From positions 1 through 37,544 of IMG/VR virus record IMGVR_UViG_3300042938_003015: a DNA stretch of 37,544 bases. The stretch is one strand, 5' to 3'. A program made the translations under genes and the position numbers. The DNA comes from a virus. Every line of letters begins with the position of its first letter. Positions within the stretch are counted from its first letter, which is position 1. Below are positions 8,743-35,009 of the stretch, in pieces. The notes beneath the pieces were generated by a model. The model saw only the letters and a list, made by a program, of their open reading frames with translations, did not search any database and had not been told where the DNA came from.

Positions 8743-9420
8743 ATGCCTAGTGAAAAAACATACCTTGGACAGATAGTTGATATTAACGATCCTCTTAAGC
8801 AGGGAAGAGCCAGAGTTTCTGTATTTGGGTTGTTCGATGATTTAGCAGTTGAGAATATACCCTGGGCGGAACAAAATTCGTGTTTATCTTTTGGTGCCAA
8901 TTATGGTGGCGGTAATATAACAGTTCCTAGATTGGGTGCTGTTGTATCTGTTCATTTTGAGGAGGAAAACTACTATAAGATAACATACGATTATATAAAG
9001 GAGCAATCCCATGATATTGCTGCCGAATTGCAAGAAGAAAATTCATACGAGGGAACGCAGTCTCTAGTTTATGATGGTGAAGCTCTCCCTGGTGCGCTTA
9101 AGATAATATACACTAGAAAGAAGGGTCTTGTCATATCCCTTGGCGATGCTAAGGTTCAATTGGATACACAAAATGGTGGTGAGCTTAGAATCGTTGTTAA
9201 AATGGGAGAGGATGAGATACGGATGGAAAAAAAGAAAGTAATCGTAAAGTGTGAAAATATAGAACTTGGAGAAGGTGCTATAGAAAAGCTAGTTAAAGGT
9301 AGTACTTTCTTAAAATATTTCAATACCCACACGCACCCGACCGGAGTAGGTCCATCTGGAACACCCATTGTTAAAATGACTGATAAACAGCACCTAAGTC
9401 AGGTATCAAAAACTAAATAA
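8743..9420 (+). CDS. Baseplate spike protein with OB-fold (gp5/gpV-like), no lysozyme domain
   Basis: A 225-aa protein. Residues 5-85 match the N-terminal OB domain of spike proteins: YLGQIVDINDPLKQGRARV at 7-25, then VFGL at 27-30, a PWAEQ strand start at 40-44, and VPRLGAVVSVHF at 61-72. Residues 105-185 are repetitive short beta strands like those of the triple beta-helix, and residues 196-199 (HTHP) with following Pro/Gly residues resemble the His-x-His metal-binding tip of contractile spikes. T4 gp5 carries a lysozyme domain between OB and helix; none is visible here, so this is a gpV-like membrane-piercing spike. It follows the repeat protein after 2 bases and precedes the next gene by 2 bases. 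Confidence 0.85.
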   Translation: MPSEKTYLGQIVDINDPLKQGRARVSVFGLFDDLAVENIPWAEQNSCLSFGANYGGGNITVPRLGAVVSVHFEEENYYKITYDYIKEQSHDIAAELQEENSYEGTQSLVYDGEALPGALKIIYTRKKGLVISLGDAKVQLDTQNGGELRIVVKMGEDEIRMEKKKVIVKCENIELGEGAIEKLVKGSTFLKYFNTHTHPTGVGPSGTPIVKMTDKQHLSQVSKTK

Positions 9421-9422
9421 TA

Positions 9423-11276
9423 ATGGCAGCAGATTGGGTAACATTCATAACTAAGGTTAGTGATAAATTGGGATCTCAGTCCATTAAATCCTATGATGAA
9501 ATGGCGGATTTTCTTAAAAAGGAATACATCTCTGCGACAGTTGGTAAAGCGGCATCACCCTATGGGGAAATCCACGTCAAGGGAAAGGATAAAGTCATGT
9601 TGGATGGTTTTAAAAAGGGATTTAAGATGCTTTATGAGAAGGGCGATCTATCATTTGAGGATAAGCAAACAAATCCAGAATACGCAGATTTAGATGTGCA
9701 GCCACCTACTGTAGATATATCGGATGCTGCGGATCAGGTGGAACTTGATTTTAGAGATTGGACTGATACAAACAAAGCGACAATACCAGATTTTACATAT
9801 TCACAATTTTTTTCCCAATATCCAAATTTTCCCGCTGATAGGAATCAAGCAGTTATAGAGATAGCTAGAAAAATATTGCATCAATTTGATGGTACTGGTT
9901 CATATTTGCAATGGATGTATTCCTTGAGAACAGGAGCATACAGTAACTGGGGAAATTTAATAATGGATCAGGTGGTGAAATTAATAAAATCTGAAGTTGA
10001 TCGTCCTCTTCAGCCCGGGGATCTTGTTAGAGGTTATGCGAAGTATAGGAACGCCGACACAATATATTTTGTTAAAACGATCGACGGTGGTATTAATGCA
10101 AGCTCATATACCACAACCGAACCTTCTGGATTCAACAGCGGCTTTGGAAATTTCACAAACCAATCGAGTTTAAAATTGAAAGATGCATTTAATTTAATAA
10201 AGGGTGATGTGAATGTAGATAGCATGGACCTTACTAGTTCAGCTATCGGTGTTACTAATAAAGAAAAATACCCCCTTGATAGAAGTGATCTTGTGGAGGG
10301 AAAAATTGTATCCGTATCTGGTTTGGATGGAGCTAAAACAACAAAAATATCAATTTTTAGTAAGCAGTATAATAGAACTTTAATAAAGACACTAATTCCA
10401 GGAACTATAAACAGAAAGCTAGATGTGAAGGAGATTGCTGCAAATTTGCCCTCAGTTTTACTAAGTGATAAATTATTACAAGAACAACATTATGCAAATC
10501 CAAAAAAAATACCTGATTATCTTACCGCTGAATTTATAACCACTTTTACATACTCTGCTAAATATGATACTAAGTATTTGAAGGCCTGGCTGGGGTCAAA
10601 TAATCTTTCGGATTCAATCATAAAGAAAATAGAATCTGAATTTGATGATTCATATCAGTATGCTGATGAAATATTTGGCTTATTTTCTAATAATCTTGCA
10701 AGAAGTGGATTTTTTACTAGAAATATAAATTATCTGGGTGGAAATCAGTCAAATATAAATTATAAATTCAATTTTAATTCAGAAAAGCAACGACGCGATC
10801 GAAATAAAAGAATCGAATATGGAGCGGAGGAGGAAAGATACAGAAATCTTAAAATTAGATGGATCAATGAGATAGCTGAGGAAGCTAGAAAAAACTCAGA
10901 TCTAGATAAGCCCGAGGATCCTTATGATGTTATGGCTAAAGGGGTACTTGATTATTGGAAATCTTGTGCACAAAAACCACTATCAAAGGAACCCGCTGCT
11001 CCACCGTGTGTTATTTCCCTTCCGCAAGGTGGTCTTTACGTTCCTATATATTATGGAAGCCAGACAATGCTTGGTAATAATATGAGAAGAGCTTTCAATA
11101 CAGGAAAAAGATTTAATGAACCATTCGAAAAACCAATTGCTTCCAAATTGGTAGCATCAGCCCTTGCCTATTCTTTTGGTATGCATTTGCTCGAATTAAA
11201 ATTCATTTATCGTGGTGGTATACCTGGTCCGAATGGTCCAGTTCCTATGATTGGCTTTATACCGCTCGTCTACTAA
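9423..11276 (+). CDS. Unknown 617-aa virion-block protein
   Basis: This gene starts 2 bases after the spike gene. The N-terminal 90 residues look helical (for example a segment around FLKKEYISATVGKA). The middle contains Tyr/Trp-rich helices (YLQWMYSLRTGAYSNWGN, about 161-178) and a highly charged helix around residues 455-495 (Arg/Glu-rich). The C-terminal 90 residues have a Pro/Gly-rich loop, then a hydrophobic helix (SKLVASALAYSFGMHLLEL) and a Gly/Pro-rich end. The helix is amphipathic rather than a clear membrane span. No enzyme motif found. Its operon position suggests a baseplate or virion protein. It is the last gene before a spacer holding a promoter candidate. Confidence 0.5.
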   Translation: MAADWVTFITKVSDKLGSQSIKSYDEMADFLKKEYISATVGKAASPYGEIHVKGKDKVMLDGFKKGFKMLYEKGDLSFEDKQTNPEYADLDVQPPTVDISDAADQVELDFRDWTDTNKATIPDFTYSQFFSQYPNFPADRNQAVIEIARKILHQFDGTGSYLQWMYSLRTGAYSNWGNLIMDQVVKLIKSEVDRPLQPGDLVRGYAKYRNADTIYFVKTIDGGINASSYTTTEPSGFNSGFGNFTNQSSLKLKDAFNLIKGDVNVDSMDLTSSAIGVTNKEKYPLDRSDLVEGKIVSVSGLDGAKTTKISIFSKQYNRTLIKTLIPGTINRKLDVKEIAANLPSVLLSDKLLQEQHYANPKKIPDYLTAEFITTFTYSAKYDTKYLKAWLGSNNLSDSIIKKIESEFDDSYQYADEIFGLFSNNLARSGFFTRNINYLGGNQSNINYKFNFNSEKQRRDRNKRIEYGAEEERYRNLKIRWINEIAEEARKNSDLDKPEDPYDVMAKGVLDYWKSCAQKPLSKEPAAPPCVISLPQGGLYVPIYYGSQTMLGNNMRRAFNTGKRFNEPFEKPIASKLVASALAYSFGMHLLELKFIYRGGIPGPNGPVPMIGFIPLVY

Positions 11277-11308
11277 AAAATCCTGCAATTTAAAGGAACT
11301 AAAGATGT

Positions 11309-11316
11309 GATATATA
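11309..11316 (+). promoter_or_regulatory. GATATATA promoter-like motif upstream of the S1/amidoligase unit
   Basis: The octamer GATATATA lies in the 83-bp spacer between the 617-aa gene and the S1-like gene, 43 bases before the ATG at 11360, followed by an AT-rich stretch (GTATAATTAATAG). The same octamer precedes four other unit-leading genes. It could be the -10-like element of a phage late or middle promoter. No -35-like partner is evident. Confidence 0.5.
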
Positions 11317-11359
11317 GTATAATTAATAGTAATGTATAATCATCTAAAAACTAAAAAAA

Positions 11360-12520
11360 ATGAATTCAGATTTCTTAGAAAATTTTGAATGGGAGCTACC
11401 TAACGGATTATCCCTCAATTCTAAAATCAAATCACCGGCAGGATCTAGAATATATTGCCACGAACCTTACGCTGAGGAGCTAGCGAAACTTTATTTTTCG
11501 AGTAATGATAAATTTGAGGGCGGATCTAAGGATCTTTCCGATGGTGGAGTTTACACCTGTACAATCGTAAGTGTTAAAGCTGATGAGGCTCTAGCTCAGA
11601 CTGATTCAGGTCAAACGATTTATATCGATCTCAAAAGGGAGAGAAGAGATGCTGAAAAGTTGAATATAACTGGAATAGGTTTCTATCCTGGTGAAGAACT
11701 TAAAGCAAGAGTTAGAAAAATGAATGGAAGCTATTCAGGTTCCGTTATAGAATATTACATACACAGTCTTAGAGCTGAATTATTTGAGCAAATTAAGAAA
11801 GAAAGCAACGCTTATCTTATTAAGATTATTAGCATTAATAAAGGTGGATATATTGCTGAATTGTCAGGAATTAAATGCTTTATGCCTGGATCATTAGCAG
11901 CTGCAAATAAAATAACCGATTTTGAATCATACATCGGGAAAGAGATGCATGTTATGATTGAAGGTTACGTAGAAGCTAAGGATATATTTATTGTTTCTTA
12001 CAAGAAATACCTTAATAGAATCATGGATTCTAAAATACAGGAGCTTGATCTTACTAAGAAATATAGAGGATATGTTACAGGAACAAGCGATTTTGGTGTG
12101 TTTGTTGAATGGGATGATATTTATACAGGTCTTATTCATAAGACTGAGTTTGCAGAGGGTAACAGTCTATCCGCTCTTTCACCAGGTATAGAAATAGAAT
12201 TCTATGTTAAGGAGATCAAAGACAATAATAGACTGACTCTTACTTTGGACCAACCTCTTGAAAGAAACGTTATTATACAGGATCTTGAATCTCAGGTAAA
12301 TGACGGAACTGTTGAACCGATGGAAGCAAAAGTTAAACATAAAAGAAAGAATGGCGCTCTAGTTGAAATTGGGGAGTTAGGACTTTTAGCGCTAATACCC
12401 CAAGATAAATTGGGTAAGAGAGGAAACAACATAAGGGTCGGTGACGACGTAACTGTAATTCCTTACGAGGTTGAAACCATCTCGGGAAAAATATTCGTTA
12501 AAGTAGTAGATGTCGGATAA
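11360..12520 (+). CDS. S1-like RNA-binding protein with four OB-type repeats
   Basis: A 386-aa protein built from S1-like OB repeats at about residues 63-135, 150-218, 233-298 and 319-385. The third is the most typical: YRGYVTGTSDFGVFVEW at 235-251, GLIHKTEF at 257-264, and a closing strand RLTLTL at 291-296. The second (AYLIKIISINKGGYIAEL, then FMPGSLAA) and fourth (MEAKVKHKRKNGALVEI) keep the same plan. In cells, ribosomal protein bS1 uses such repeats to bring mRNA to the ribosome; an S1-like phage protein could act in translation or RNA metabolism in the cytoplasm. Its end overlaps the start of the amidoligase-like gene by 11 bases. It has its own promoter candidate at 11309. Which RNA it binds cannot be told. 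Confidence 0.8.
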   Translation: MNSDFLENFEWELPNGLSLNSKIKSPAGSRIYCHEPYAEELAKLYFSSNDKFEGGSKDLSDGGVYTCTIVSVKADEALAQTDSGQTIYIDLKRERRDAEKLNITGIGFYPGEELKARVRKMNGSYSGSVIEYYIHSLRAELFEQIKKESNAYLIKIISINKGGYIAELSGIKCFMPGSLAAANKITDFESYIGKEMHVMIEGYVEAKDIFIVSYKKYLNRIMDSKIQELDLTKKYRGYVTGTSDFGVFVEWDDIYTGLIHKTEFAEGNSLSALSPGIEIEFYVKEIKDNNRLTLTLDQPLERNVIIQDLESQVNDGTVEPMEAKVKHKRKNGALVEIGELGLLALIPQDKLGKRGNNIRVGDDVTVIPYEVETISGKIFVKVVDVG

Positions 12521-13916
12521 TAGAACACATTTTGATAAGTTAAATGCACTCAGCTCAGCCGTAATAGGATTCGAATTTGAATTCTACACAGATCTTTTAA
12601 AAGGTAAGGCTGCTGAAGCATTATCCCAGCTTGTCAAAAAGAAAGTTATAGTTTCAGAAAAATATCACTCAAAAACTCCTGTAGATGCTAATAACTTTAA
12701 GTTAGAACCCGATTATTCGGGTGGTAACAAAATGGTAGAGCTTATTACAGGACCACTTCCATATCTGGAGGCAATTCCAATTTTAATAAAAATATTAAAA
12801 TGGATAGACGAGAATGGATGGACAAACGATAGATGTGCATTTCAATTTTCGGTAAGCTTCGATAAAAACAGAAAAGACGTAAAGGATAAAATCGAAACGA
12901 TGGATAAACTTAAGTTTATATTAGGCCTTGATGAAGGTCTAATATACTCTAAGTTTGGTTCGAGAGAGAAGAACGTCTATGCAAAATCTGTAAAAAAAGT
13001 ACTACCTAGAAATAGATTTTCAATACTTGAAAATATCACCACCATAGATCCTAAAATGTATAAAATACCGGAGGACAAATATTATGGTGTAAATTTTACT
13101 AAAATGCCCAAAGGTTATATAGAATTTAGATATCTGGGTAACAGAGATTATCAGAAAAAAATTAAGGATATAAGAGAAATAATAGATTATATAATTCTCT
13201 ATCTTTATGATCTATTAAGTGGTAGAATATCAGGTTATAGCAAACAGGACCTTGCTACTTTGCAGGGAATGATGAATAAATACGCTAAAGTTGTAAGGTC
13301 ATTCAGTGATCCTGATATTTTTTTTAAAAATTATCCAGATTTCCATATATTCATAGATCTCAAAGGCTGGGACGAAAATGTTAAAACGTACTTCTTTGCG
13401 ATAAGAGAAAAAATATTTGATCTCATAGTTGATGGTAATATAACATCATGTTATTTTAATTATGACACGACTACGGGAAGATGCCAGATAAAAGAAGCTA
13501 GAAGTAGGGGAGCATTTGAGATTGAAGGTGTTGATCTTATATTATGTGATATAAAAAATGCAACAGTTAGAAATTGTAATATTTATAACTGCTCAATAAA
13601 AAAATCATGCATCGAGGACTCTGCCATTTTCGGTGGGACCAAGGTTATCTCATCGAAAATCAAAGCAACGATTGTTGATTTTAGTAATGAATTAAAAGAT
13701 TGTTTTATTGATTGTGAAAATAAAAACATAAACTGTAAAATTGTTGGTGGTGTTTTTAGAGGCGGTATACTCGGTGATAATTCGGAGCTTAGCAAAGAAA
13801 CGATGAAGGTAAAAGCTCCAGAGGATATAAGAATGACCAGATTTGTTACTGATAGCAGACTTAAGAATCTTAACGATCAGTACGGTGGTTCAAAGTTCGG
13901 TAATATGAACTACTAA
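12510..13916 (+). CDS. Amidoligase-like enzyme fused to a pentapeptide/beta-helix-like C-terminus
   Basis: A 468-aa protein. Residues 15-300 show the motif order of the Amidoligase_2 type of the COOH-NH2 ligase fold: IGFEFEF at 19-25, a substrate-side MVELITGPLPY at 75-85, a strand FQFSVSFD at 111-118 where relatives often have His-x-His, YGVNF at 192-196 and IEFRYLG at 204-210. Such enzymes are thought to form amide or peptide-like bonds using ATP. Residues about 335-425 are short strands with regularly spaced Cys/Asn/Ile (NCNIYNCSIKKSC at 355-367), like a pentapeptide or right-handed beta-helix repeat. The start overlaps the S1-like gene by 11 bases. The replaced His residues leave open that activity is altered. 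Target unknown. Confidence 0.7.
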   Translation: MSDNRTHFDKLNALSSAVIGFEFEFYTDLLKGKAAEALSQLVKKKVIVSEKYHSKTPVDANNFKLEPDYSGGNKMVELITGPLPYLEAIPILIKILKWIDENGWTNDRCAFQFSVSFDKNRKDVKDKIETMDKLKFILGLDEGLIYSKFGSREKNVYAKSVKKVLPRNRFSILENITTIDPKMYKIPEDKYYGVNFTKMPKGYIEFRYLGNRDYQKKIKDIREIIDYIILYLYDLLSGRISGYSKQDLATLQGMMNKYAKVVRSFSDPDIFFKNYPDFHIFIDLKGWDENVKTYFFAIREKIFDLIVDGNITSCYFNYDTTTGRCQIKEARSRGAFEIEGVDLILCDIKNATVRNCNIYNCSIKKSCIEDSAIFGGTKVISSKIKATIVDFSNELKDCFIDCENKNINCKIVGGVFRGGILGDNSELSKETMKVKAPEDIRMTRFVTDSRLKNLNDQYGGSKFGNMNY

Positions 13917-13930
13917 AATAAAAACTTAAT

Positions 13931-14719
13931 ATGACACAAGACGAATTAATACAGGAAATCACCGATGCATTAAATTTTAGTTGTGCATTACCTTATAGCT
14001 TAAACGCAACTGAAATTGAAAGAATCATAAAAAGAGCTAAAGCCTGGTTTTATGATAATTATCAGTATGCTGTTGAGGATAGGGTTTTTGTTATAGCTAA
14101 TAATATATTTGCTCATCCTGAATTTAAAAGAACACGCCAAATAACACTTCCCAAGTCAATAATAGGTGTATATGAAGTTAGAGAATTAGGTGGATCTGGA
14201 GTATCGGGAACACCGGATAGAGACTTTGGCGATTCTAAATTACTTGGATCTGAATTATTACTTTCCCCCTTCATGGGAGACAATATGGTTTATAGAACTG
14301 TAATGTATTCATACTTTGATCTAGCAAAAGCGTATCAACTGAATACCTTTGCATATAGATATAATAAAAACACAAAAGCATTAACTATATTAGGTAGGGA
14401 TCCGAATAGATCGGGTAAAGGCGGACAACAAGCCCAGCTTGCTCAGGGATTTGGTGTTGGTGGTATTGATGTGTCTGTTAGATGCCATGTTGCTATTCCC
14501 GACGAATATCTTTTTGATGATGAGCTTTTTGTTAGATATTGCATAGCTAAGTCCAAAATATCGCTTTCGCAGATGCTTAGTGTTTTCACGTATAATCTTC
14601 CTGGTGGCGTTACTATAAACGCTAGTGAAATAGGATCTCAGGGAACTACCGAGCTTCAGGAGGTAATGGACATGATAAATGGGGAAAACACAAGTTCTTA
14701 CTTTTTGCAGTGGAATTAA
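13931..14719 (+). CDS. Possible neck/head-tail connector protein
   Basis: A 262-aa protein starting 14 bases after the amidoligase-like gene. The N-terminus is helical (TQDELIQEITDALN, then EIERIIKRAKAWFYDNY), followed by a beta-rich middle with RQITLPKSIIGVYEVREL around residues 64-81 and a Gly-rich loop, and ends in helices. A helical start followed by a small beta domain is seen in connector and neck proteins of tailed phages, and T4-like neck genes lie near baseplate genes, but the match is one of general architecture. It is the last gene before a strong hairpin and an inverted endonuclease gene. Confidence 0.45.
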   Translation: MTQDELIQEITDALNFSCALPYSLNATEIERIIKRAKAWFYDNYQYAVEDRVFVIANNIFAHPEFKRTRQITLPKSIIGVYEVRELGGSGVSGTPDRDFGDSKLLGSELLLSPFMGDNMVYRTVMYSYFDLAKAYQLNTFAYRYNKNTKALTILGRDPNRSGKGGQQAQLAQGFGVGGIDVSVRCHVAIPDEYLFDDELFVRYCIAKSKISLSQMLSVFTYNLPGGVTINASEIGSQGTTELQEVMDMINGENTSSYFLQWN

Positions 14720-14727
14720 CAGTAATC

Positions 14728-14764
14728 TAACGATATTTCTGATAATATATCAGAAATATCGTTA
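14728..14764. terminator. Perfect 17-bp hairpin between convergent genes
   Basis: Arms at 14728-14744 and 14748-14764 pair perfectly around a 3-nt loop (left arm TAACGATATTTCTGATA). On the plus strand it is followed by an AT-rich stretch with five T residues (14769-14773), fitting an intrinsic terminator for the unit ending at 14719. It also sits just beyond the stop of the minus-strand endonuclease at 14772, so it may end both transcripts; the minus-side U tract is poor. Confidence 0.8.
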
Positions 14765-14771
14765 ATTATTT

Positions 14772-16103
14772 TTATATATTTACTAGATTACCTTTGCTAT
14801 CAAATATCATGAATTCAAAATCCATACCCATTTCGAGACATCTTTGCATTTTCATTATATTTTTATCTTCGTGCATTTTATAAGTATATGGGCTTTTAAC
14901 TTCCAATATTTTATTTATTGATTTTATATAGATATCGGGGTAATATCTATTTCCCCCACTGTATATTATTTGGCCGGTTATATTTGATATATCATGCATA
15001 TCTGTAAGTATATCATTCTCTTCGAATTGAGTCAATAATATATCCATTGCAAACTTTTCGTAGCCCTGAAGTTTTATGATTTTTCCACTCGGCAATGTAT
15101 AATCATAATACCTTCTCATTCCTAACATTGCTTTTTCGTGTATTTCTGGGATTCTCATATTGTGTTCAACCCCGTACTTTTCAAGCATTGATTTTTTCAT
15201 AAGATCTATATCCATTAATGCGCACTTAAATCCATATTTTCCAATACTGGTTTTATATTTTTTATCCTTTGTTGATTGGTGGCTTGTTGGATGTTTCCCG
15301 TCCCAATCCAGATTGTACTTCTTTGTGCATTTTTCTCTGAATTGATTTGTGCTGGTATAATATTTAGCACCATGTCTTTCCAGATTAGTCTTCTCTATGC
15401 CTTCTCTATATCCAGGTATATCCCAAGGATTTTCGATACCATATTTATTAAGCATTCCATTTTTGGAACCTTTTACTGTTGCTTTTTTTTTGCAAATTTC
15501 AGAATTACATGCTTTCGAATAGTTTGAATCCTTTTTATCTCGTATTTCAGAGAATTTATTCATAAAGCCATATTTCCTTGGTTTCCCACAAAATTCACAC
15601 AATTCCAACTCCATTTTATTAAAGAATACATGATAGAATCTTTGGGAATCACTTATGTTTGTATATTCTTCATCCAGGAACATAGTCAGCGAAAGCAGTT
15701 GATTTCTGGTATCTGTGTCTCCCGATATTTTTGCTATTAGCGAACCATATCCCTGTTTGCTATTGCCTCTTTCTTTAAAGTCATCTATTAGGCAGCTAAC
15801 TGAACCGCAATGTGTGTAATAGTTTGAATCCTTTTTATCAATCTTATCCGAGAATCTATCATACACTGAAAATTTGGCATTTCTTGCACAGTATTTACAT
15901 TTTATTATGTTGTGCTCATTAAACCATACATGGTAGAATCTTTGTCCTATAGACACATTATCATATTCTGTGTCCAGGTATCGTGTTGATTCCTCTAATT
16001 CTGAGATCATACCTGAATCCCGTTTCATTTTATTTATAAATGGTCCTAAAACTTTGGTTTCCTTATTTTTCTCTTTCTCTATTAATTCTTCTAAATTTTT
16101 CAT
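14772..16103 (-). CDS. Free-standing mobile endonuclease with duplicated zinc-finger modules and PD-(D/E)xK-like nuclease
   Basis: A 443-aa protein on the minus strand inside a plus-strand virion operon. Residues 41-104 and 141-204 are two copies of one module: each has QRFYHV, a CxxC pair (69-72; 169-172), KKDSNY and a second Cys pair (99/104; 199/204), so each can bind one zinc. The middle has repeated segments around KYGIENPWDIPG (220-231) and KYGVEHNMRIPE (309-320), common in phage-borne nuclease-like genes. The C-terminus has RYYPDIYI (387-394) and EVKSPYTY (401-408), a PD...ExK pattern, with E349 in GYEKF as a possible further acidic residue. It probably cuts DNA at a recognition site and spreads like a homing endonuclease. 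It has its own GATATATA motif (16122-16129). Confidence 0.75.
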   Translation of the reverse strand: MKNLEELIEKEKNKETKVLGPFINKMKRDSGMISELEESTRYLDTEYDNVSIGQRFYHVWFNEHNIIKCKYCARNAKFSVYDRFSDKIDKKDSNYYTHCGSVSCLIDDFKERGNSKQGYGSLIAKISGDTDTRNQLLSLTMFLDEEYTNISDSQRFYHVFFNKMELELCEFCGKPRKYGFMNKFSEIRDKKDSNYSKACNSEICKKKATVKGSKNGMLNKYGIENPWDIPGYREGIEKTNLERHGAKYYTSTNQFREKCTKKYNLDWDGKHPTSHQSTKDKKYKTSIGKYGFKCALMDIDLMKKSMLEKYGVEHNMRIPEIHEKAMLGMRRYYDYTLPSGKIIKLQGYEKFAMDILLTQFEENDILTDMHDISNITGQIIYSGGNRYYPDIYIKSINKILEVKSPYTYKMHEDKNIMKMQRCLEMGMDFEFMIFDSKGNLVNI

Positions 16104-16198: not shown

Positions 16199-16570
16199 AT
16201 GAGAGAAATTTATAATAGAGATCCCAACGATCCAAAGTACAATCCCTACCAACTTGAGGTATCAGATCCTGTGGAGATCTGTACAGGTCAGCTTAAAATG
16301 CTACTACTTACAAACAAAGGGGAAGTTTTAGGCGATCCTAAATTTGGATTGAATTTGGAGGATCTTATTTTTAATCTGGAGCTTTCTGAATATAGTATAA
16401 AAAAGGAACTTGATCTTAACCTTAAGGTCTATGTTCCTCTTTTTGCGGCATTGGGTGGTACATATCAATTGAATTTTTATGTTGGCACACAAAGGGATAT
16501 AGCAACACTTGATTTTAATATAGAATCTGACGGAGGACTTAGTCCGCTGGTTACACTAAAATTAACATAA
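16199..16570 (+). CDS. gp25-like baseplate wedge protein
   Basis: A 123-aa protein of the usual length for the gp25/GPW family. Residues 40-58 (KGEVLGDPKFGLNLEDLIF) match the family core in which a Gly-rich turn leads to an FG pair and an LE helix. A helix at 63-75 and the strand LKVYVP (75-80) follow; the EPR triad seen in many relatives is not clearly present. In T4, gp25 sits in the inner baseplate next to gp6 and gp53 and nucleates sheath contraction. Here the next gene is gp6/J-like, as in other contractile systems. Confidence 0.88.
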   Translation: MREIYNRDPNDPKYNPYQLEVSDPVEICTGQLKMLLLTNKGEVLGDPKFGLNLEDLIFNLELSEYSIKKELDLNLKVYVPLFAALGGTYQLNFYVGTQRDIATLDFNIESDGGLSPLVTLKLT

Positions 16571-16577
16571 CAAAGAA

Positions 16578-18302
16578 ATGAATATATTTAAAAAAAATAA
16601 TATACTTATAGATGGATTATTAGGTGATACCTTTGCATTCCTTCAGAGCACGTATAATCAGACAGCTAATGTCTTTACTGTTGCATCAGCATGGGGACAG
16701 ATACTTTTTGTTCTGCAGAATCTCTCACAGCTTATACTTTATTTTATAGAAGATTCGATAACCGAATTAAATATTCAGCAAGCAACCAGGGATTATTCGG
16801 TTAGAAGTTTGGCTAGAATTGCGGGTTATGATCCAGGTAGAGCATCAGCAGCTCAGGGTGAAGTTTCTATTTCGTGGAATACCAGGGATGGAGATGTTAG
16901 TGGTGGTGCTGTTATAATAAAGAATAATTCACAGATAAGATGCTTGCAAAATGGTAAAATATATTCTCTTAGATTTGGTAGTAACGAAATTACTATCCCA
17001 TTGGTAAGAGGAAACTCCATATCCGCTAAGATAGTTCAAGGAAATTTCGAGAGCGCGACCCTTACCGGGGGTGGTACAGCTTTGCAAAGCTTCAATCTGC
17101 CATCAACTGCAGGAGCATACATAGATCAATTTTATATAGATGTTTATGTCAACGAGGAAAAATGGAGAAGATATGATTCACTTTATGATATACCTCTTAA
17201 TGGGAAGGGATATTTAATTAGAAGCGGTATTCAGGAGGGTATAGATCTTTATTTTGGTAATTCTAATTTTGGTATGGTCCCACAACCAGGATCAATGATA
17301 AGAGTTGAATACCTACAAACTAGTGGCATAAGTGGTAATAGTAATTCAACAAAGGAAACCCCTCTCACTTACAAATTTGTAACATCAGGAACGGATCTTT
17401 TTGGCGGCGAAGTTGATTTGAATTTATACATAGACATTAAAAACAATATAGATCCCACCTTTGGTACCAACCCCGAAAGTATATCACTTATAAGGTTGGT
17501 TGCTCCAAAAACTAGTAGATCTTTTGTTTTTGCAAGACCTGAAAATTATGAGATATTCTTAACTAAATTTGGTGTATTTTCTCAAATCCAGGCATTTTCA
17601 ACATTTGATGATGATTATCTCGATGATGATAACATAGTTTATCTTTATTTAGTACCCGATATAACTCTAAATTTAACAACTAACGAGGATTATTTTAGTG
17701 TTCCTTATGCTAACTTTCTCCTAACTGCACAACAGAAAACAAAAATATTAAATCTGATACAGGATACGGGATCGATGATAGCAACCACAGTCGTGAAGAT
17801 AGTTGAACCAGTTATAGCAAGATATGTTATTAATATTATTATATCAATTTTTGAAGGTAATGACCCAGAGACTATAAAGCAGTCCATTAGGAAGGGAATT
17901 TCTGATTATATGTTAAATAATAAAAGGAGAGATAAAATACCTAAATCTGATTTTATAGCTCTTATTGAGGGAATAGATGGTGTTGATTCAGTTTCACTTT
18001 TCTTCATAGGCCAGAAAAATGAGGAGAATCAAATAGCAATTAAAAATCTTACTAATGTTAGTAATGCACAATATGAAGAGATTATAGGAATGGATAGTTT
18101 TGGCGATATAATTATAGGTAGAAACGAACTAGTTATACTAAGAGGAGGATGGGATGATAGAAACGGAACATCTTTCACTGAGGGTGTAGTAGCAGGTAAG
18201 CCTGGACCACTTAATATAACTGTTGCTTCCCTAGTCCCTAGAAATTTTAGAAGCGAATTGACAGCTGATTTAAAAACTAGATTAGCCGCTCAAAATAAAT
18301 AA
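16578..18302 (+). CDS. Baseplate J / gp6-like wedge protein
   Basis: A 574-aa protein starting 7 bases after the gp25-like gene. The N-terminus has QQATRDYSVRSLARIAGY (about 62-79), typical of the start of J/gp6-type proteins, and the C-terminal part has the J-type order: VVKIVEPVIARYVINIIISI (about 406-425), a helical stretch GNDPETIKQSIRKGISDYM, and then IPKSDFIALIEGIDGVDSVSL (about 454-474). Three copies or dimers of this protein build the inner baseplate ring around the hub. The gene order gp25-like then gp6-like is the strongest support. Confidence 0.85.
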   Translation: MNIFKKNNILIDGLLGDTFAFLQSTYNQTANVFTVASAWGQILFVLQNLSQLILYFIEDSITELNIQQATRDYSVRSLARIAGYDPGRASAAQGEVSISWNTRDGDVSGGAVIIKNNSQIRCLQNGKIYSLRFGSNEITIPLVRGNSISAKIVQGNFESATLTGGGTALQSFNLPSTAGAYIDQFYIDVYVNEEKWRRYDSLYDIPLNGKGYLIRSGIQEGIDLYFGNSNFGMVPQPGSMIRVEYLQTSGISGNSNSTKETPLTYKFVTSGTDLFGGEVDLNLYIDIKNNIDPTFGTNPESISLIRLVAPKTSRSFVFARPENYEIFLTKFGVFSQIQAFSTFDDDYLDDDNIVYLYLVPDITLNLTTNEDYFSVPYANFLLTAQQKTKILNLIQDTGSMIATTVVKIVEPVIARYVINIIISIFEGNDPETIKQSIRKGISDYMLNNKRRDKIPKSDFIALIEGIDGVDSVSLFFIGQKNEENQIAIKNLTNVSNAQYEEIIGMDSFGDIIIGRNELVILRGGWDDRNGTSFTEGVVAGKPGPLNITVASLVPRNFRSELTADLKTRLAAQNK

Positions 18303-18844: not shown

Positions 18845-21800
18845 ATGGCAAATCTAAATCTTAATTTTTATAATAAAAACGGTAATCCATTAAATTTTGA
18901 TTACATAGGAGCAACCGGTCCAACCCCTCTTGATACCAAGTTTTCTCATATCTTAGGTGCTTCCGCATCTACGTCTGGTTATTTTCAATGGAGTGAAACA
19001 TCCGATGATTATTCGCTGGTTTTTAATATAGCTGATGTAAATAGTACGGATCTTTATAAATGGTGTTTAGAAGTAAATGATTTTATAAATAAAGGTGCAA
19101 CTGTTTATCTCAATGGTTATATAGCAGTTGCTAATACAAACTTTAAAGGTAAAATCACAAGCGTTAGTAATATTGGTTCAACCTTTACTATTACCTTACC
19201 CAAGAGTTATTTTCTTGGTCAGAATATAATAAGCTATGACACCCAAATTTATTTCGAGGGAACATACGATAACAGACCTGGCGGGTACTTTAAAGGTAAT
19301 ATCTATTTTGATCCGATATCAACTGGTCTCTATGAGAACCAGCAGGTTTTTGTGGTGCAAGAATTTATAAATGGTTCTGGCGATGTTGAATATGGTCTTC
19401 CACACACCTCGAATATTGGTTTAACCGGTGCAAGATGGAGAACTAGATGGTATAATAATAATTATGGTGATGTTGATGTTTCTGAGATTATATTCACTTA
19501 TGCGATAGAGGATCAGTTAAGTGGTGGGGAGGGTCAACCTTTAATTATCAGTTATCCAAATATGGCTATTCCTGTTGGATCTTCTGTGGGAGATTCCTAT
19601 TCCAATGGATTAATTGTTACTAGCAATATTGAATCTGATGCTATAGCAATAAACGTAGCACTAAATTCACCGGATGATCTGGATAATGTTTATGAGAGGA
19701 AACTTATCATTGAAGACATAACAACAGATACTCCACAGAAAGTTATAGAAATTGATTTCTATGGACAGACCGTTGCGGAGGACGAAAGATTTAAGGTTCT
19801 TCTTGAAAATATAGGAAGATCATTTTATAACAGTGACTCTATCATACTAAGAGATCATGATCCGGCTGAACCTGTTCCAAATTTCGTGGAAATCAACGAA
19901 AAGAGAAAAGAATTGCTTATAGCAGGTGATGAAATATTTCCCTATATTGGTAGCTATAAGGGTCTTATTAATGCTCTTAAGTTCTTTGGGTACCAGGACA
20001 TGAGGATAAAGGAGTATTGGTTAAATCTAAACTATAAAAATCTAAAATTAGAATCACCATTACAACAAAACCAAACCTTTCTTAATAAGATAAAGAGTGG
20101 AGAATCTAAAAATGGATATTCGCAATCGTATAACGTTGGCGATGTTTTGGATAATGAAAATTCCGGGAAATATAAGCTTATACAGACTTATGGTCCCGAT
20201 GGTGATGGAAATTATGTGCTTAATGTCACTTCCGAAAATACACAACTACCTAGTAAATCCATTAAAAAAACATCTCTATTTGGACTTTATTATGATCTGA
20301 ATAAGGTTACCGGTGACATTGACGAATATGGGTATCCTATTGTTACTGATGCTTTTAAATTTACGCAGGAGGAGATATTAATAAAAATATTTGCTTTAAA
20401 GGAAAGACTTAAAAGAGATTATCTGCCATTAAATGCCAGAATAATTGACATAACTGGGGAAGGTGTTTATTTCATGATACAGAATACAAAATCATGGACA
20501 GATCAGATGATAAGATCTGATATAAACATAGGGTATGATTTCGATTTTTTTCCTAATCCCGATTTTGGTTTTATTGAGGATCTTAGAAATTTTAACATAA
20601 GACCAAATTCCAATTATATACAAACTCCAAGTTCCTATGACAATTCATATGAACTGGATGTTAGTTTTCCTGGTGGAACCGGAAGTGCCATTAGATTTTC
20701 TGGTAGTATACCATATGGTATCACTGGAGACAATCCCACTATAAAATTAGAAGCTGGTAAAACATATAATTTCAAAGTTAATGATTCATCCGGATATGGA
20801 CTGGATTTTAATATAACAAACTATGCGGAATTTCCTAACAATCAGCAATTATGGAATTCTAATGTGCCATCGGGTATAATTAATAACGGAGCTACTGGCG
20901 GTAGTTCCCTGGAGTGGTATATAGCTCCTGGTGCTACTGGCACAATCCATTATTATTCAAATAATAATCCGGTTTCTTTATCCGGCAGTGTTGAAATAAT
21001 ACCTGCCACATTATCGGACCTTGGTAATATAGTGAATCCCCTGGATTTTCAACAAAATTATACACCTGCTCAAAACGAATCCCTATTGTTGGCTATTGAT
21101 AAATTTTATAATCTAAAGCAAAATGGCAAGATAGTGGAGCTGGGTGATGATAGATTTGATTCACCTGAATATATCGATCCGTTAACTGGAATTCCGTACG
21201 AAACCCCTGTTGGTATGCCAATAATTCTTGAATTATCGACAGATAGATGGGAATGGAATGAATTAAATATAGATTGGGATGCACTGCTGATACCAACGTA
21301 TAGACCTGGGGATAGAGTTAAGGTTAAATCGACAGGCATATTTGGTACCGTTAGAGTTGTCTATTATAGCACCGGCGAATATGAGATAGCATTAGATAAT
21401 TCAACGACAGCAATTTTCGGCGAGACTGAGCTTTTTTCAACAGTTCAGAATTACACCATATTAAACTGGAAGAATGTTGATTTCTCTAATATGGTGGAAA
21501 TTGAATGGCTGCTAAATAAATCTGCAACCCAACCGGGTACTCCATATAATTTCGCATTTAGAGGGTCTATAGTGGACTATTATAAACTTGCCCACTTCTT
21601 ACCTTACACTGGGGAATATCAGGTTATATGTAACACCTATGATGCTTTTAATACGAAAACCACAGTTATTAAGAATGCATCAATATTTGTAGATCCTAAA
21701 ACCATTGATATAGATTCATGGACAAGATACAGGGAGGTTGAGAATTATCTATGGGACAATGTGGATCGGGAATGGAAGGAATATGAATCCATATGGGAGT

Positions 21801-24340
21801 ACCCAGCGGAGGGATCAACAATAGACACTCTTAGAAAAACTATACCTACTGAGATACTTGACTTTGCAACATATGGAAATAAGGCCGATGACGGTCAGGA
21901 TCTATTGGTTAGAACCACAGAGTCACCAACTGGAGCTTATGGCACCATAATATTGAATCAGGAAATTCTTGTAGTTTCTAGTGTAATATCGAATCAGATC
22001 ACGATTGGCCAGTACGGGTATGCAATAGTCACAACAACAACCCCACACTCTTTACAAAATGGTGATAATGCAACATTAACTGGAAGTATACCAGAGATCA
22101 ATGGTAGATGGCCAGTAACAGTTACTGGTGCGTCATCTTTCTATATACCAGTTACCCTCAGTTATGCATGGTCCGGTGTTTTATTAGAAATGACACCAAT
22201 AAACTATCTGTATGTTGATATCTCCATATACACATCTCAGGAAATTCTAAGTATCGGATCAATATCCATTTATGTTAATAATAGACTGATTGGAAATAGT
22301 AAAACCGGCGACACTTTATATAACACAGCAAATGAGATAACGTCATCTATAAATTCTCTTAGAACATATCCGGATTACTTTGCATCGTGCGAGAATCCAC
22401 AGGAAAATCCAGTGACAATCACAATATATGCACCGGGTGAGCTTGGAGCGGAACAAAATGGTGTGCCTTTGAGGGTTGAAGAAACCGGATCTGTAAATGT
22501 CATTTCATATTCACCAGTTTTAAGCGGCGGTATTAATTCTAGTGATTATTATGTTTATTGGGACGAGAACGGCGAGAATTATCCAAACCCAAATCTTAAA
22601 TATTGGGGAACGAAGAGATTAAATTGGCAGATATTTAATGATAGTACATGGGATAATGGCTATGCCCATTCTTGGTATGATTATGAGTTTAATAACGATT
22701 GGTTGGGTGGATATGAATTACATTCAATTGTAGCAAACGATAAACTTAGAATTCCCACTGGTAATGAGACTTATCCATTTCCAAGCACTCTAACTTTTTC
22801 TGGTGGTTATAATCTAACCTTATCGGAAGCAGCAGCACAGCTTAATGCTGCTGATTCACATATAACAAATTTTTACTATAGAGTAATTCCAGACGATACA
22901 GGTTCGTTGCTAACAGTAAATGGTCCAATGAATATCGATATGGGTAATTCGATATTGAATAATGGACCATATCCACCGCCTCCATCATTGATCGGGGGAA
23001 GTCCATTACTTGTGGTTGATTTTGGTTATGCCGGGGGATCTCCTGTTACAACATCAACGACAACAACAAGTACAACAAGTACAACAACAACGACAACCAC
23101 GACAGCTGCTCCTACAACAAGTACCACCACCACAACAACATTACCTACGACTTATAGTTATCAAGCAATTATTTATGATTGTGTGACATGTACTCCTACT
23201 GGAAGCAATGTTAGCTTTACGAATGGTGAATTATTAACTGTAGGTAAATGGTATGCATGGGAAAATTACTCAACTGGAATTTATTATAAAATCTTAATTG
23301 ATGTTTATAATGGTACAATTGGAGGTACTCCTAATGCGATACTATATGATGTAGATAAGAAAGATACCTGTGCGGAGGTAGTCTGTACGGATTGCGCATT
23401 TGCTGGGGGTACCGCTGTTTTTGTACCTGCAACCACAACCACAACAAGTACTACTAGCACAACAACAACCACAACAATACCGGTTCCTGTTTCTAGTAAA
23501 TATGGAGATACTGCAAATAACCCAAGATTTATGGTTATGGATTCCTCTGGTAATCTTTATGTAACAACTTCTTATTCAAATATTATAACAAAAATAACAC
23601 CTGGAGGTGTATCAAGTACTTTTGCAACAGTGGGAACTGGTCAGCAGGGTCCGATGGGAATTACTATTGACCCTTCAAATAATCTCTATGTTGCAAATGA
23701 ATTTGCAAGTACTGTTTCAAAAATAACACCTGCTGGTGTAGTTACTATTTTTGCAACTACTGGATCTGGTCCATGGGGAATTGTTAGGGATCGTTTTGGG
23801 TATTTTTATACTTCAAATAGTAATGCAAATAGTGTTACGAAAATAACTCCGGGAGGGGCTTCTAGTCAATACGGAGGCACGATAGGAGCTGCTCCCCGTG
23901 GAATTGTTATTGATTACGATGGTAATGTCTATGTAGCATGTCAGGGTTCAAATTCAGTTTGGAAAATTACACCTACTGGAACTACTTCTAAATTAGCAGA
24001 TACCGGAATTAGTCCAAATGGAATTGTTATGGATTCATCGGGTAATATTTATACTGCAAATACAGGATCTGATAATGTTACAAAAATAACGCCTGCGGGT
24101 GCAGTTACTACTCCTTTTGCAACTACTGGCGATGCGCCAATTTCGATTGCTATTGATCCTTCGGGTAATCTTTATACTTCAAATTATGGATCTAATAATG
24201 TTTCAAAAATTACTACATCAGGGGTATCTACAATATTAGGAACTACTGGAAATAATCCATATGGAATTTTTCTTGATCCTTTGAATAATGTATATACAGC
24301 GAATTTGAATTCGAACACAGTAACAAAAATAACAGTTTAA
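18845..24340 (+). CDS. Giant gp7-like baseplate/tail protein with C-terminal beta-propeller
   Basis: An 1831-aa protein directly after the gp6-like block, where T4-type phages have gp7. Residues about 345-395 (EINEKRKELLIAG, then GSYKGLINALKFFGY) resemble the short helical signature of tail protein I/gp7-type proteins. Residues about 600-720 look cupredoxin-like (GKTYNFKVNDSSGYG, IAPGATGTIHYYSNN, LSGSVEII) but lack the copper-binding His/Cys set. Thr/Ser-rich linkers at 1402-1436 and 1530-1544 bracket a small Cys-containing domain (CVTC; CAEVVCTDC). Residues about 1550-1831 are seven NHL-like repeats of about 40 residues, each with a DxxGNLY-type strand and a KITP-type strand. T4 gp7 is about 1030 aa, so this is a fusion with receptor-binding-type extensions. 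Confidence 0.75.
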   Translation: MANLNLNFYNKNGNPLNFDYIGATGPTPLDTKFSHILGASASTSGYFQWSETSDDYSLVFNIADVNSTDLYKWCLEVNDFINKGATVYLNGYIAVANTNFKGKITSVSNIGSTFTITLPKSYFLGQNIISYDTQIYFEGTYDNRPGGYFKGNIYFDPISTGLYENQQVFVVQEFINGSGDVEYGLPHTSNIGLTGARWRTRWYNNNYGDVDVSEIIFTYAIEDQLSGGEGQPLIISYPNMAIPVGSSVGDSYSNGLIVTSNIESDAIAINVALNSPDDLDNVYERKLIIEDITTDTPQKVIEIDFYGQTVAEDERFKVLLENIGRSFYNSDSIILRDHDPAEPVPNFVEINEKRKELLIAGDEIFPYIGSYKGLINALKFFGYQDMRIKEYWLNLNYKNLKLESPLQQNQTFLNKIKSGESKNGYSQSYNVGDVLDNENSGKYKLIQTYGPDGDGNYVLNVTSENTQLPSKSIKKTSLFGLYYDLNKVTGDIDEYGYPIVTDAFKFTQEEILIKIFALKERLKRDYLPLNARIIDITGEGVYFMIQNTKSWTDQMIRSDINIGYDFDFFPNPDFGFIEDLRNFNIRPNSNYIQTPSSYDNSYELDVSFPGGTGSAIRFSGSIPYGITGDNPTIKLEAGKTYNFKVNDSSGYGLDFNITNYAEFPNNQQLWNSNVPSGIINNGATGGSSLEWYIAPGATGTIHYYSNNNPVSLSGSVEIIPATLSDLGNIVNPLDFQQNYTPAQNESLLLAIDKFYNLKQNGKIVELGDDRFDSPEYIDPLTGIPYETPVGMPIILELSTDRWEWNELNIDWDALLIPTYRPGDRVKVKSTGIFGTVRVVYYSTGEYEIALDNSTTAIFGETELFSTVQNYTILNWKNVDFSNMVEIEWLLNKSATQPGTPYNFAFRGSIVDYYKLAHFLPYTGEYQVICNTYDAFNTKTTVIKNASIFVDPKTIDIDSWTRYREVENYLWDNVDREWKEYESIWEYPAEGSTIDTLRKTIPTEILDFATYGNKADDGQDLLVRTTESPTGAYGTIILNQEILVVSSVISNQITIGQYGYAIVTTTTPHSLQNGDNATLTGSIPEINGRWPVTVTGASSFYIPVTLSYAWSGVLLEMTPINYLYVDISIYTSQEILSIGSISIYVNNRLIGNSKTGDTLYNTANEITSSINSLRTYPDYFASCENPQENPVTITIYAPGELGAEQNGVPLRVEETGSVNVISYSPVLSGGINSSDYYVYWDENGENYPNPNLKYWGTKRLNWQIFNDSTWDNGYAHSWYDYEFNNDWLGGYELHSIVANDKLRIPTGNETYPFPSTLTFSGGYNLTLSEAAAQLNAADSHITNFYYRVIPDDTGSLLTVNGPMNIDMGNSILNNGPYPPPPSLIGGSPLLVVDFGYAGGSPVTTSTTTTSTTSTTTTTTTTAAPTTSTTTTTTLPTTYSYQAIIYDCVTCTPTGSNVSFTNGELLTVGKWYAWENYSTGIYYKILIDVYNGTIGGTPNAILYDVDKKDTCAEVVCTDCAFAGGTAVFVPATTTTTSTTSTTTTTTIPVPVSSKYGDTANNPRFMVMDSSGNLYVTTSYSNIITKITPGGVSSTFATVGTGQQGPMGITIDPSNNLYVANEFASTVSKITPAGVVTIFATTGSGPWGIVRDRFGYFYTSNSNANSVTKITPGGASSQYGGTIGAAPRGIVIDYDGNVYVACQGSNSVWKITPTGTTSKLADTGISPNGIVMDSSGNIYTANTGSDNVTKITPAGAVTTPFATTGDAPISIAIDPSGNLYTSNYGSNNVSKITTSGVSTILGTTGNNPYGIFLDPLNNVYTANLNSNTVTKITV
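23048..23152 (+). repeat. Low-complexity Thr/Ser codon tract (linker 1)
   Basis: About 35 codons, mostly ACA/ACC/ACG/AGT, encoding a Thr/Ser/Pro/Ala-rich linker at residues 1402-1436 of the gp7-like protein. Similar tracts occur at 23432-23476 and in the gene at 24475. Confidence 0.9.
23432..23476 (+). repeat. Low-complexity Thr/Ser codon tract (linker 2)
   Basis: Fifteen Thr/Ser codons encoding residues 1530-1544, just before the beta-propeller of the gp7-like protein. Confidence 0.9.
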
Positions 24341-32336: not shown

Positions 32337-33110
32337 CTAATCTAAATTATTTTCCTCCTTATATTTTTCATAATTATCGGTAAGTTCAACAAGAATTGGG
32401 TTTCTAACTATATCATCCCTTGTAAAAGTAAATGAATCGCATTGACCCACTCCATTCGCTATTTTTTCGTAAAAAGTTAGTAGATCTTTTTTTCTTGTTT
32501 TCAAGTCCCATTGTGTAACATCCCCACATATGATTATTCTTGAATTGTGACCCATTCTGGTTACAACCAACATTATTTGCCTAAGATCCGCATTTTGTGC
32601 TTCGTCCAATATAAGTATCGTGTCATCAAAAGTTCGGCTCCTCATGAATGCTAAAGGTTGCATATCGATGGTTTTTGTATCAGTCATCAGCTTTATTTTT
32701 TCCTTAGCTTTAAGTATTTTTTCCATATTAGAAATATATCCCTCCATATAGGGAGCTATTTTTTCATCAACAGATCCCGGAAGAAACCCTAAGTTTTCAC
32801 CGGCTTCAACTGCTGGTCTTGCTAGAATTATTTTGGAATGCTCCCCTTTTCTTATAAGATCCAGTGCTGCATAGCATGCAACAAAGGTTTTCGCTGTACC
32901 TGCGGGACCTGTACAAACTGTTAGAAAATTATTTTCAATCGTTTTGAAGAATTTTAACTGGGAATCAGTAAATTTGATGTAATTAAAATCTTCTTTTTGA
33001 AGAATTGGACCTTTCGGTGTGCTGTCAGTTTTAGTTATTCCTGTTGATTTAATTTGATTTTTTTCAACGTTAACCGGGATTGGTTCATTTTTTGTTTTTT
33101 TTCTTGGCAT
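32337..33110 (-). CDS. phoH: PhoH-like P-loop ATPase
   Basis: A 257-aa protein of typical phage PhoH length. Walker A is GPAGTAKT at 68-75, the family signature ARPAVEAGENLGFLPG lies at 96-111, Walker B is ILILDEAQ at 164-171, and GDVTQ is at 195-199 with an Arg at 235 that could act as the arginine finger. The N-terminal 40 residues are a Lys/Pro-rich disordered tail. PhoH is an ATPase linked to RNA metabolism; its role in phages is not settled. The gene converges with the 1364-aa gene (stop-to-stop gap 16 bases) and diverges from the gene at 33227. It ends in TAG. Confidence 0.95.
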   Translation of the reverse strand: MPRKKTKNEPIPVNVEKNQIKSTGITKTDSTPKGPILQKEDFNYIKFTDSQLKFFKTIENNFLTVCTGPAGTAKTFVACYAALDLIRKGEHSKIILARPAVEAGENLGFLPGSVDEKIAPYMEGYISNMEKILKAKEKIKLMTDTKTIDMQPLAFMRSRTFDDTILILDEAQNADLRQIMLVVTRMGHNSRIIICGDVTQWDLKTRKKDLLTFYEKIANGVGQCDSFTFTRDDIVRNPILVELTDNYEKYKEENNLD

Positions 33111-34142: not shown

Positions 34143-35009
34143 ATGCAAGTAATTTATAAAATAAAAAATATTTTGGATTCTAAATTTTATATAGGTAGTT
34201 CCATTGATTTCGATAGGAGAAGAGAAAGACATATATATGAACTCAGAAAGGGTATACACGCAAATAAACATTTATTGAATGCGTGGAAAAAATTTGGTGA
34301 GCCCTCGTTTATATTTGAAATAGTGGAGATAGTAAACGATTCAAAAATTTTATTGGAAAGAGAACAGTATTATATCGATACTACGGAAGCTTGCGATTGT
34401 AAAATTGGTTATAATATTTCGAAAACTGCTGGCAGCTGGTTGGGCAATAGACATACGGAGGAAACTAAAAATAAAATAAGTAAAAAAATATCTGGTACTA
34501 TACATAGCGACGAATCAAAAAAACTGATGTCAAAAAATAGTCCTAGACTTTCCGGCGATAAGCATCCTATGTATGGTATTAAACATTCCGATGAATCTGT
34601 GAATAAAATGAAAAATTCTAGTAAAAGAATTTCTGGGTATAATCATCCAATGTTTGGAAAAAAATTAACTGATGATCAGATTTGTGTGTTATCTGAAAAA
34701 TCTTCCGGTGAAAATAATCCCATGTATGGCATTAATGTATATAATACATGGATAGAAAAATATGGCTATGATATTGCAAAAGAAATGTGGAACGATTGTA
34801 ATAAAAGAAGATCTCTAAATTGTTTAAATAAAGGAACAAAGGGTGTAATCCAAATGACTATTTTAGGTAAGTATATTTGTGAATTTATATCATTAACAGA
34901 GGCATTTACTAATACAGGAATAAATGTTAGTTCAATATCGCAGGTATGTAAAGGTAATAAAAATACCGCAGGCGGATATAAATGGGAATATAAAAATAAA
35001 ATAAATTAA
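34143..35009 (+). CDS. Free-standing GIY-YIG homing endonuclease
   Basis: A 288-aa protein. The N-terminal nuclease has VIYKIKN (3-9; VIY in place of GIY) and FYIGSS (15-20), Arg residues at 25-29 as catalytic candidates and LEREQYYID (71-79) with the metal-binding Glu. The middle holds NUMOD3-like DNA-binding motifs with GNRHTEETKNKIS at 101-113, GDKHPMYGIKHSDESV at 138-153, and GYNHPMFGKKLT at 165-176. The C-terminus (234-284) looks like an IENR1/NUMOD1 helix-turn-helix unit. It lies 10 bases after one virion gene and 5 bases before another, as for a mobile gene dropped between two genes; no flanking-intron signature is visible. Confidence 0.92.
   Translation: MQVIYKIKNILDSKFYIGSSIDFDRRRERHIYELRKGIHANKHLLNAWKKFGEPSFIFEIVEIVNDSKILLEREQYYIDTTEACDCKIGYNISKTAGSWLGNRHTEETKNKISKKISGTIHSDESKKLMSKNSPRLSGDKHPMYGIKHSDESVNKMKNSSKRISGYNHPMFGKKLTDDQICVLSEKSSGENNPMYGINVYNTWIEKYGYDIAKEMWNDCNKRRSLNCLNKGTKGVIQMTILGKYICEFISLTEAFTNTGINVSSISQVCKGNKNTAGGYKWEYKNKIN

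Follow-up and report, generated by a model that had tools for sequence, protein, structure and literature searches.

An S1-like gene overlapping an amidoligase-like gene among the virion genes of a phage

Why would a phage keep a relative of ribosomal protein bS1 joined to an amidoligase-like protein in the midst of its tail and neck genes? The question is raised by positions 11,309 to 13,916 of the virus record IMGVR_UViG_3300042938_003015, the whole stretch of which, 37,544 bases, is called the window below. Two genes on the plus strand are concerned: S1 (11360..12520), which by profile and predicted structure encodes a bS1-like protein of 386 amino acids (aa) with four OB domains, and AL (12510..13916), which encodes an amidoligase-like protein (AL) of 468 aa with a weak PF12224 match and a glutamine-synthetase-type model. 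The reading that we favor, with somewhat less than even confidence, is that of a late phage bS1 favoring A-rich mRNAs without Shine-Dalgarno (SD) sequences and coupled to a divergent AL that acts in neck or tail assembly; the late timing is deduced from the virion genes around the pair. Both proteins would share expression, not necessarily a substrate.

The S1-like protein, its overlap with AL and the upstream element

After exclusion of sequences that were short, contained N, were truncated at an end or lacked an ATG start, 124 AL and 107 S1 proteins were left, from which 37 representatives each were taken; the window replaces its own identical copy in the AL set, and L090, L029 and L102 were removed by hand from the S1 alignment. 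The resulting S1 profile of 34 rows matches with its positions 57-383 residues 14-345 of E. coli bS1, i.e., domains 1-4 in order (E 1.4e-56). Four OB barrels are seen in the AlphaFold2 model (mean predicted local distance difference test score, pLDDT, 79.6; predicted TM-score, pTM, 0.49), near residues 64-128, 152-213, 234-295 and 321-384, with a helix at 38-51 ahead of the first barrel. In Foldseek, this model is best matched by chains of bS1 bound to 30S, with low TM-scores and loosely placed domains. Position 37 is aromatic in 31 of the 34 rows, and the conserved residues that follow include A38 (26 rows), Gln or Glu at 39 (25) and L41 (28). From a by-eye comparison with the E. coli N-terminus, position 37 may correspond to the first aromatic residue of the bS1 helix.

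The S1 profile gave one match per record in 16 of the 23 records searched, including two Lak phages; the seven records without a match are G009-G013 (contigs of 18-99 kb, the S1-less group), G015 (50 kb) and G014 (330 kb). The rpsA model TIGR00717 matched in 12 of 13 records, none of them above 577 bits, and its curated cut-off was passed by only two of 14 control genomes; in three of the 16 S1 records it also weakly touches other, longer open reading frames (ORFs) with S1 domains. Because the protein is a relative of bS1, work on the ribosome or mRNA is its likely role. Thus, of what a preliminary description of this locus had proposed, the four-OB S1-like protein is borne out by the collinear domains and the barrels of the model, and its ribosome or RNA connection is made likely by this kinship, but the analysis gave no sign of a ribosomal substrate.

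The end of S1 and the start of AL overlap by exactly 11 nt (ATGTCGGATAA, 12510..12520), as had been described. Sixty of 63 distinct pairs overlap by 8, 11 or 14 nt, the gaps being in L120, L122 and L123, and when loci up to L119 are counted by distinct AL, all 62 pairs overlap (both counts take in the pair of the window). At other junctions of the operon overlaps were found in 6/51, 5/21 (with doubtful starts), 0/32, 1/63, 0/61 and 0/65 cases. The junction with none in 32 cases, between the 617-aa ORF and S1, has a median gap of 82, and that between the same ORF and AL in S1-less loci overlaps in neither of two cases; five negative distances (-161 to -438) between the hub gene and the 617-aa ORF resemble mis-set starts. 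The overlap of S1 and AL never opens, down to about 52% S1 identity, though its length shifts between 8, 11 and 14 nt. It is not a product of chance, and from it we infer that translation of AL is coupled to that of S1 by re-initiation.

Both genes are under strong purifying selection. The ratio of nonsynonymous to synonymous substitutions (dN/dS) against three close relatives is 0.026-0.037 for AL (0.019-0.043 for its two halves) and 0.031-0.033 for S1; it is 0.032-0.049 for the gp13-like gene, 0.055-0.061 for the wedge gene and 0.146-0.163 for the 617-aa ORF, on which constraint is weakest among the seven genes compared. At that, dS is 0.7-1.9 for these relatives, and two more distant ones are saturated or higher.

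The leader of S1 (11277..11359, plus strand), 83 nt between the 617-aa ORF and S1, is A-rich before the start and has no SD-like match. It contains the octamer GATATATA at 11309..11316, the promoter-like motif noticed before, shared by 50 of the 52 distinct S1 leaders (the next most frequent 8-mer by 23 of 52). There are 92 copies in 35 sequences, whose relatedness keeps the sites from being independent. Of these copies, 87 fall outside ORFs of at least 100 aa, such sequence making up 8.4% of bases, and 62 precede a start of their own strand by 25-65 nt, versus 2 of 92 for the complement. For the control 8-mers GTATATAA, AATATATG, GATATAAT, GATATTAA, TAATATGA and TATAAATA, the copies outside ORFs are 2/53, 13/87, 10/126, 7/95, 1/73 and 26/159, and those 25-65 nt before a start 0, 0, 4, 0, 11 and 2, respectively. 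Another octamer, ATATATAG (41 of 62 copies outside ORFs; 20 copies 25-65 nt before a start), overlaps GATATATAG and does not serve as a control.

A promoter call by motif number was tried and abandoned: the window has 33 sigma-70-type sites versus 36.2 expected, and six copies of GATATATA versus 5.85, so that only position and conservation carry weight. Five of the six copies are intergenic and precede genes (at 11309, 16122 on the minus strand, 16174, 26333 and 33191), and one, at 785, is inside a gene. In all five S1-less loci of the clade to which the window belongs (L034 and L035 with identical AL, L036, L051 and L052), the element precedes the first codon of AL by only 13-15 nt (at 9979-9986 in L034); as a -10 element, it would leave the AL mRNA of these phages nearly leaderless. 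Among 16 other uncoupled AL starts, ten of them read at the aligned start, GATATATA is upstream only in L122, and several have other TATATATA-like stretches. Overall, GATATATA is likely a promoter element common to the clade, and the candidate promoter of the S1-AL-neck unit. As to start sites in general, GGAG or GAGG precedes none of the 26 starts in the window and a looser pattern only one, and the last 15 nt before them are 58% A.

The amidoligase-like protein and its genomic surroundings

The Pfam model PF12224 (Amidoligase_2) matches the AL of the window with E 4.5e-4 and 20.6 bits, just below the curated cut-off of 22, and therefore the protein is called amidoligase-like here and is not counted as a family member. 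The cut-off is passed by the AL of its relative L120 (27.8 bits), and 29 of 37 members match at E <=0.1. A glutamine-synthetase-type fold is supported by the predicted structure (mean pLDDT 84.5, pTM 0.78), in which residues 7-241 (12528..13232) align with glutamine synthetase (4bax; Z 12.2, 181 residues, root-mean-square deviation 3.3), with low TM-scores of about 0.3 from Foldseek itself. The closest viral model, A0A6J5PQ40, covers nearly the full length (TM 0.83/0.89); many viral Foldseek matches are named amidoligase, and the top one is uncharacterised. The C-terminal third, overlooked in the preliminary description, is predicted to form a pentapeptide-repeat helix (about residues 324-421, 13479..13772), and this region is aligned in both great clades of AL.

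In the alignment of 76 rows (75 distinct locus sequences and the window, repeated by L001), E77, E205 and R207 never vary, nor do E22 and E24 in the 75 rows that cover them. By analogy, we take the GxExE, E and ExR patterns to be the acidic residues of the metal and ATP site with an arginine, and the histidine of the family in its H-x-H/N strand to hold a metal-ligand position of glutamine synthetase. At position 112, this histidine is kept in 13 rows and replaced by Gln in 63, and position 114 is Ser in 62 rows and Asn in 14. The codons 12843..12851 of the window encode Q112-F113-S114 where outgroup rows have His-x-Asn. Gln112 is fixed throughout the clade of the window; His112 belongs to L120, L122, L123 (LR756500) and the other great clade, including phages of 634-735 kb. 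The nearest outgroup on the AL tree, L134, already has Gln at 112 and keeps Asn at 114. For the enzymatic activity that had been suggested for AL, the fold, the acidic residues and the arginine are in favor, but loss of the family histidine in this clade weakens the claim of an amide ligase.

Among 61 AL-seeded loci, S1 is adjacent to AL in 46 and not in 14, five of which belong to the clade of the window, and one locus is too short; among S1-seeded loci, AL is found in 64 of 65. The two sets share contigs and lean to close relatives. S1 homologues were also found in LR756500-504, LR745206 and Lak, the LR records being presumably those of the study on rpS1 in huge phages. On the linear records, the two genes are 1.3 kb apart in LR756500, and 206 kb, 441 kb, 252 kb and 48 kb apart in the 634-735 kb phages LR745206, LR756501, LR756502 and LR756504, respectively; in the two Lak records searched, S1 is present but AL was not detected by profile. 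In two records there is a second, weak and partial match of the AL profile. Hence the co-occurrence and order on which the proposed pairing depends are conserved within the clade, its five S1-less loci aside, but elsewhere the genes can be far apart or one of them missing.

The S1-less row L035 is nested within S1-bearing clades on the AL tree, which is explained more simply by loss of S1. Together with its leader, S1 seems to be a cassette that can be removed from between the promoter and AL. The relatives thus form a natural deletion series: S1 coupled to AL, S1 absent with the promoter at AL, and both genes apart.

The wider association of AL is with tail and neck genes, profiles of which match near it in 15 of 17 distant loci, some of them near-duplicates; no such match was obtained near AL in L125 and in the 9-kb contig L054. 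The gene immediately ahead of S1 in LR756501 is tail-tube-like (phrog_45, E 1.2e-4), and its homologue in LR756504 is two genes before S1. In Lak-B5 (L127, about 8993-11364), S1 is flanked on one side by a 292-aa protein that had no match in the library and resembles a sliding clamp by eye only, and on the other by a weakly zinc-ribbon-like protein of 104 aa. A scan of genome contigs for AL in cellular genomes gave the single locus L134, the neighbors of which are phage genes: the C-terminus of S1, an insert with a homing-endonuclease-like gene, AL and a neck gene, with baseplate genes on the contig as well. This 5.9-kb contig, filed under a Deltaproteobacteria/Myxococcota metagenome-assembled genome, is read here as a phage contig.

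Possible partners were considered, too. Pfam scans of the genes adjacent to AL in the window found no glutamine amidotransferase (GATase) domain, and a match to GATase_6 in five of 13 records lies 16-17 kb from AL, the other eight having none. An amidoligase-amidotransferase device next door was rejected on this ground; instead, an AsnB-like gene is found 15-41 kb away. In L154 (2512-3918, about 16 kb upstream of AL), it encodes an asparagine-synthetase-like protein of 468 aa with GATase_6 and Asn_synthase domains. Of 25 records, 15 have an Asn_synthase match above the cut-off, and all 15 belong to the clade of the window (ORFs of 465-474 aa); the match in G014 is below it. This gene and AL are separated by 15-16 kb in eight records in which the distance was measured, and by 40-41 kb in two that lack S1. 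The protein has 15 phage matches, 22-27% identical; in the seven named huge phages, including five with AL, it was not detected. The ribosomal protein bS21, considered as a constant partner of S1, was found in only five of 13 records and was discarded.

The window matches a 102-kb contig (L033/L063; 100% over the nine proteins compared), and contigs of near relatives reach 430-434 kb; it is probably a fragment. The placement of the pair among virion genes, as described earlier, holds on both sides. Upstream on the plus strand are the genes for a baseplate hub-like (gp5-like OB) protein (phrog_430, 8743..9420) and for the 617-aa protein of unknown function (9423..11276). Downstream, the third gene of the unit (13931..14719) encodes a T4 gp13-like neck protein of 262 aa; the phrog_211 head-tail adaptor profile is matched by 21 of 21 members of this family, and the family profile matches gp13 from PDB with E 2.2e-5. 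It is followed by a 17-pair hairpin (14728..14764), a candidate terminator, with terminator-like sites overall near chance (5 found versus 3.8 expected), and by an inverted DUF7487 gene (14772-16103, minus strand), homing-endonuclease-like by a very weak PHROG match, which separates the neck gene from the gp25-like baseplate gene (16199..16570, weak matches) and the baseplate wedge gene (phrog_219, 16578..18302). Relatives of the DUF7487 protein occur near AL in several distant loci. Farther on are the gene for an 1831-aa protein in the tail cluster (18845-24340), the C-terminus of which matches Vgb_lyase/NHL beta-propeller models, a PhoH-like ATPase gene (32337-33110, minus strand) and a homing endonuclease gene (34143-35009).

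Possible mechanism and alternatives

On the reading that we favor, S1, AL and the neck gene would belong to a huge tailed phage and be transcribed late as one unit from the GATATATA element. S1 would dock on the host 30S subunit via its N-terminal helix and OB1-OB2, at the uS2 site used by E. coli bS1, which is anchored there by its N-terminal helix with Phe5 and Phe9 (PMC10123108). OB3-OB4 would recruit the A-rich, SD-less late mRNAs of the phage. Ribosomes finishing S1 would re-initiate at the overlapping AUG, so that AL is made in proportion to S1, and AL may take part in assembling the neck or tail, where it would act on a virion protein as an ATP-dependent ligase or serve as a divergent assembly factor with the glutamine synthetase fold. 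Since some relatives lack one gene or carry the two apart, S1 and AL probably do separate jobs.

Several observations weigh against this scheme. The equivalent of bS1 Phe9 is mostly Leu in the phage proteins (28 of 34 rows), and the absence of SD sequences from 26 A-rich leaders is not significant against shuffles, in which 0.25 are expected. The link to virion genes is uneven as well: no tail-gene profile matches within 10 kb of AL in LR756501, the 207-aa homologue of the tail-tube-like protein in LR756504 has no PHROG match of its own, and S1 of Lak adjoins no recognised virion gene, its neighbors being the 292-aa and 104-aa proteins. Finally, the function of AL could be unrelated to the virion, as late operons carry passengers.

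Other explanations take the same data differently. The loss of His112, with Gln fixed throughout the clade of the window and Ser at 114 in most rows, would fit a catalytically dead or metal-altered protein reused structurally or for neck and tail assembly with the pentapeptide helix as a binding surface, and so would the strong constraint on both halves of AL, the tail and neck genes around it in distant loci and the alignment of the helix region in both great clades. However, the five acidic and arginine residues E22, E24, E77, E205 and R207, needless in a dead enzyme, are kept in every row that covers them, and Gln112 might still contact a metal or water; we consider this explanation doubtful. 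That AL is instead an active ligase, modifying the cell envelope or making a small peptide-like metabolite that excludes other phages, seems rather unlikely to us. The PF12224 and GATase_6 proteins of LUZ24-like and OM43 phages (PMC3890496, PMC10580990) and the AsnB-like protein in the clade of the window suggest such a role, but the AsnB-like gene is 15-41 kb from AL and undetected in the seven named huge phages, and the LUZ24-like amidoligases belong to an early module, whereas AL is in a virion operon.

The pair itself may also be no more than gene packing, S1 having landed once between the promoter and AL with an overlap inherited without selection. A single origin is plausible on the AL tree (subject to long-branch warnings), and S1 is absent from one nested subclade that keeps AL; but an overlap that changes its length and never opens in 62 of 62 pairs, while neighboring junctions vary, makes this explanation highly improbable. 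The least probable of all is the one that takes up the idea of the preliminary description, a dedicated two-protein device for modifying the ribosome or S1 itself. The invariant overlap and the place of both genes among the most constrained of the region agree with it, but against it stand the 14 of 61 AL loci without an adjacent S1, the two Lak phages with no detectable AL and the four records in which the genes are 48-441 kb apart. In addition, Q112 is present in S1-less loci, too, and thus the change in the active site does not track S1.

A more specific form of our favored scheme would make the His-less glutamine synthetase fold with its pentapeptide helix an assembly factor or altered ligase, dosed by re-initiation behind an S1 that switches ribosomes to late phage mRNAs. 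We regard it as quite improbable; if it is true, a late-stage translation switch is wired to virion assembly. Independently of this, the analysis places a phage bS1 in a defined unit with a candidate promoter. The deletion series makes it testable whether such a protein redirects ribosomes to SD-less late mRNAs, and the role of phage amidoligase-like proteins becomes testable as well, the link here being to neck and tail genes and not to amidotransferases.

Comparison with known systems

Phage S1 is collinear with domains 1-4 of E. coli bS1; in contrast to the latter, it lacks domains 5-6 and has a longer N-terminal region. SD sequences are rare in huge phages that carry rpS1, for which redirection of translation was proposed (Al-Shayeb et al. 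2020, PMC7162821). The bS1-type domains and the scarcity of SD sequences are the same here, whereas placement in a tail operon and coupling to an amidoligase-like gene are not described in the available part of that paper. A jumbo cyanophage is reported to encode six ribosomal proteins, bS1 among them (PMC13157829). Phage bS21, for which Bacteroidetes hosts were predicted, is expressed late with structural genes (PMC9723584); a ribosomal protein gene within a virion cluster is the common feature, and the protein is a different one.

Proteins with PF12224 in LUZ24-like, phiEco32-like and OM43 phages share with AL the glutamine-synthetase-type domain and their phage origin. The LUZ24-like amidoligase is encoded in an early module together with a GATase and an ATP-grasp enzyme (PMC3890496), and envelope modification was suggested for other phage amidoligases (PMC10580990). 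Unlike these proteins, which go with a GATase, AL is encoded in a virion operon, is fused to a helix and has lost the family histidine in the clade of the window. The amidoligase of Atu_ph07 is not named in the main text portions, supplementary tables aside, of the work on its virion proteome (PMC6102473), and the accessible portions of an overview of jumbo phages (PMC7824862) have the term in the reference list only. A possible distant relative is gp124 of Salicola phage SCTP-2 (440-kb genome), a tblastn match of LR756500 AL (E 9e-7, 40% of the query); it differs in having 647 aa and no Pfam match, and a 24.6-kb stretch of SCTP-2 gave no AL, S1 or tail-gene profile match at E 1e-3.

No report of S1 paired with an amidoligase was found in the literature searched, mostly without subscription journals. 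Compared with the systems described so far, the S1 half is of a known kind; new within the searches made are the coupling, the promoter element, the cassette behavior and an amidoligase-like lineage that is altered and fused to a helix.

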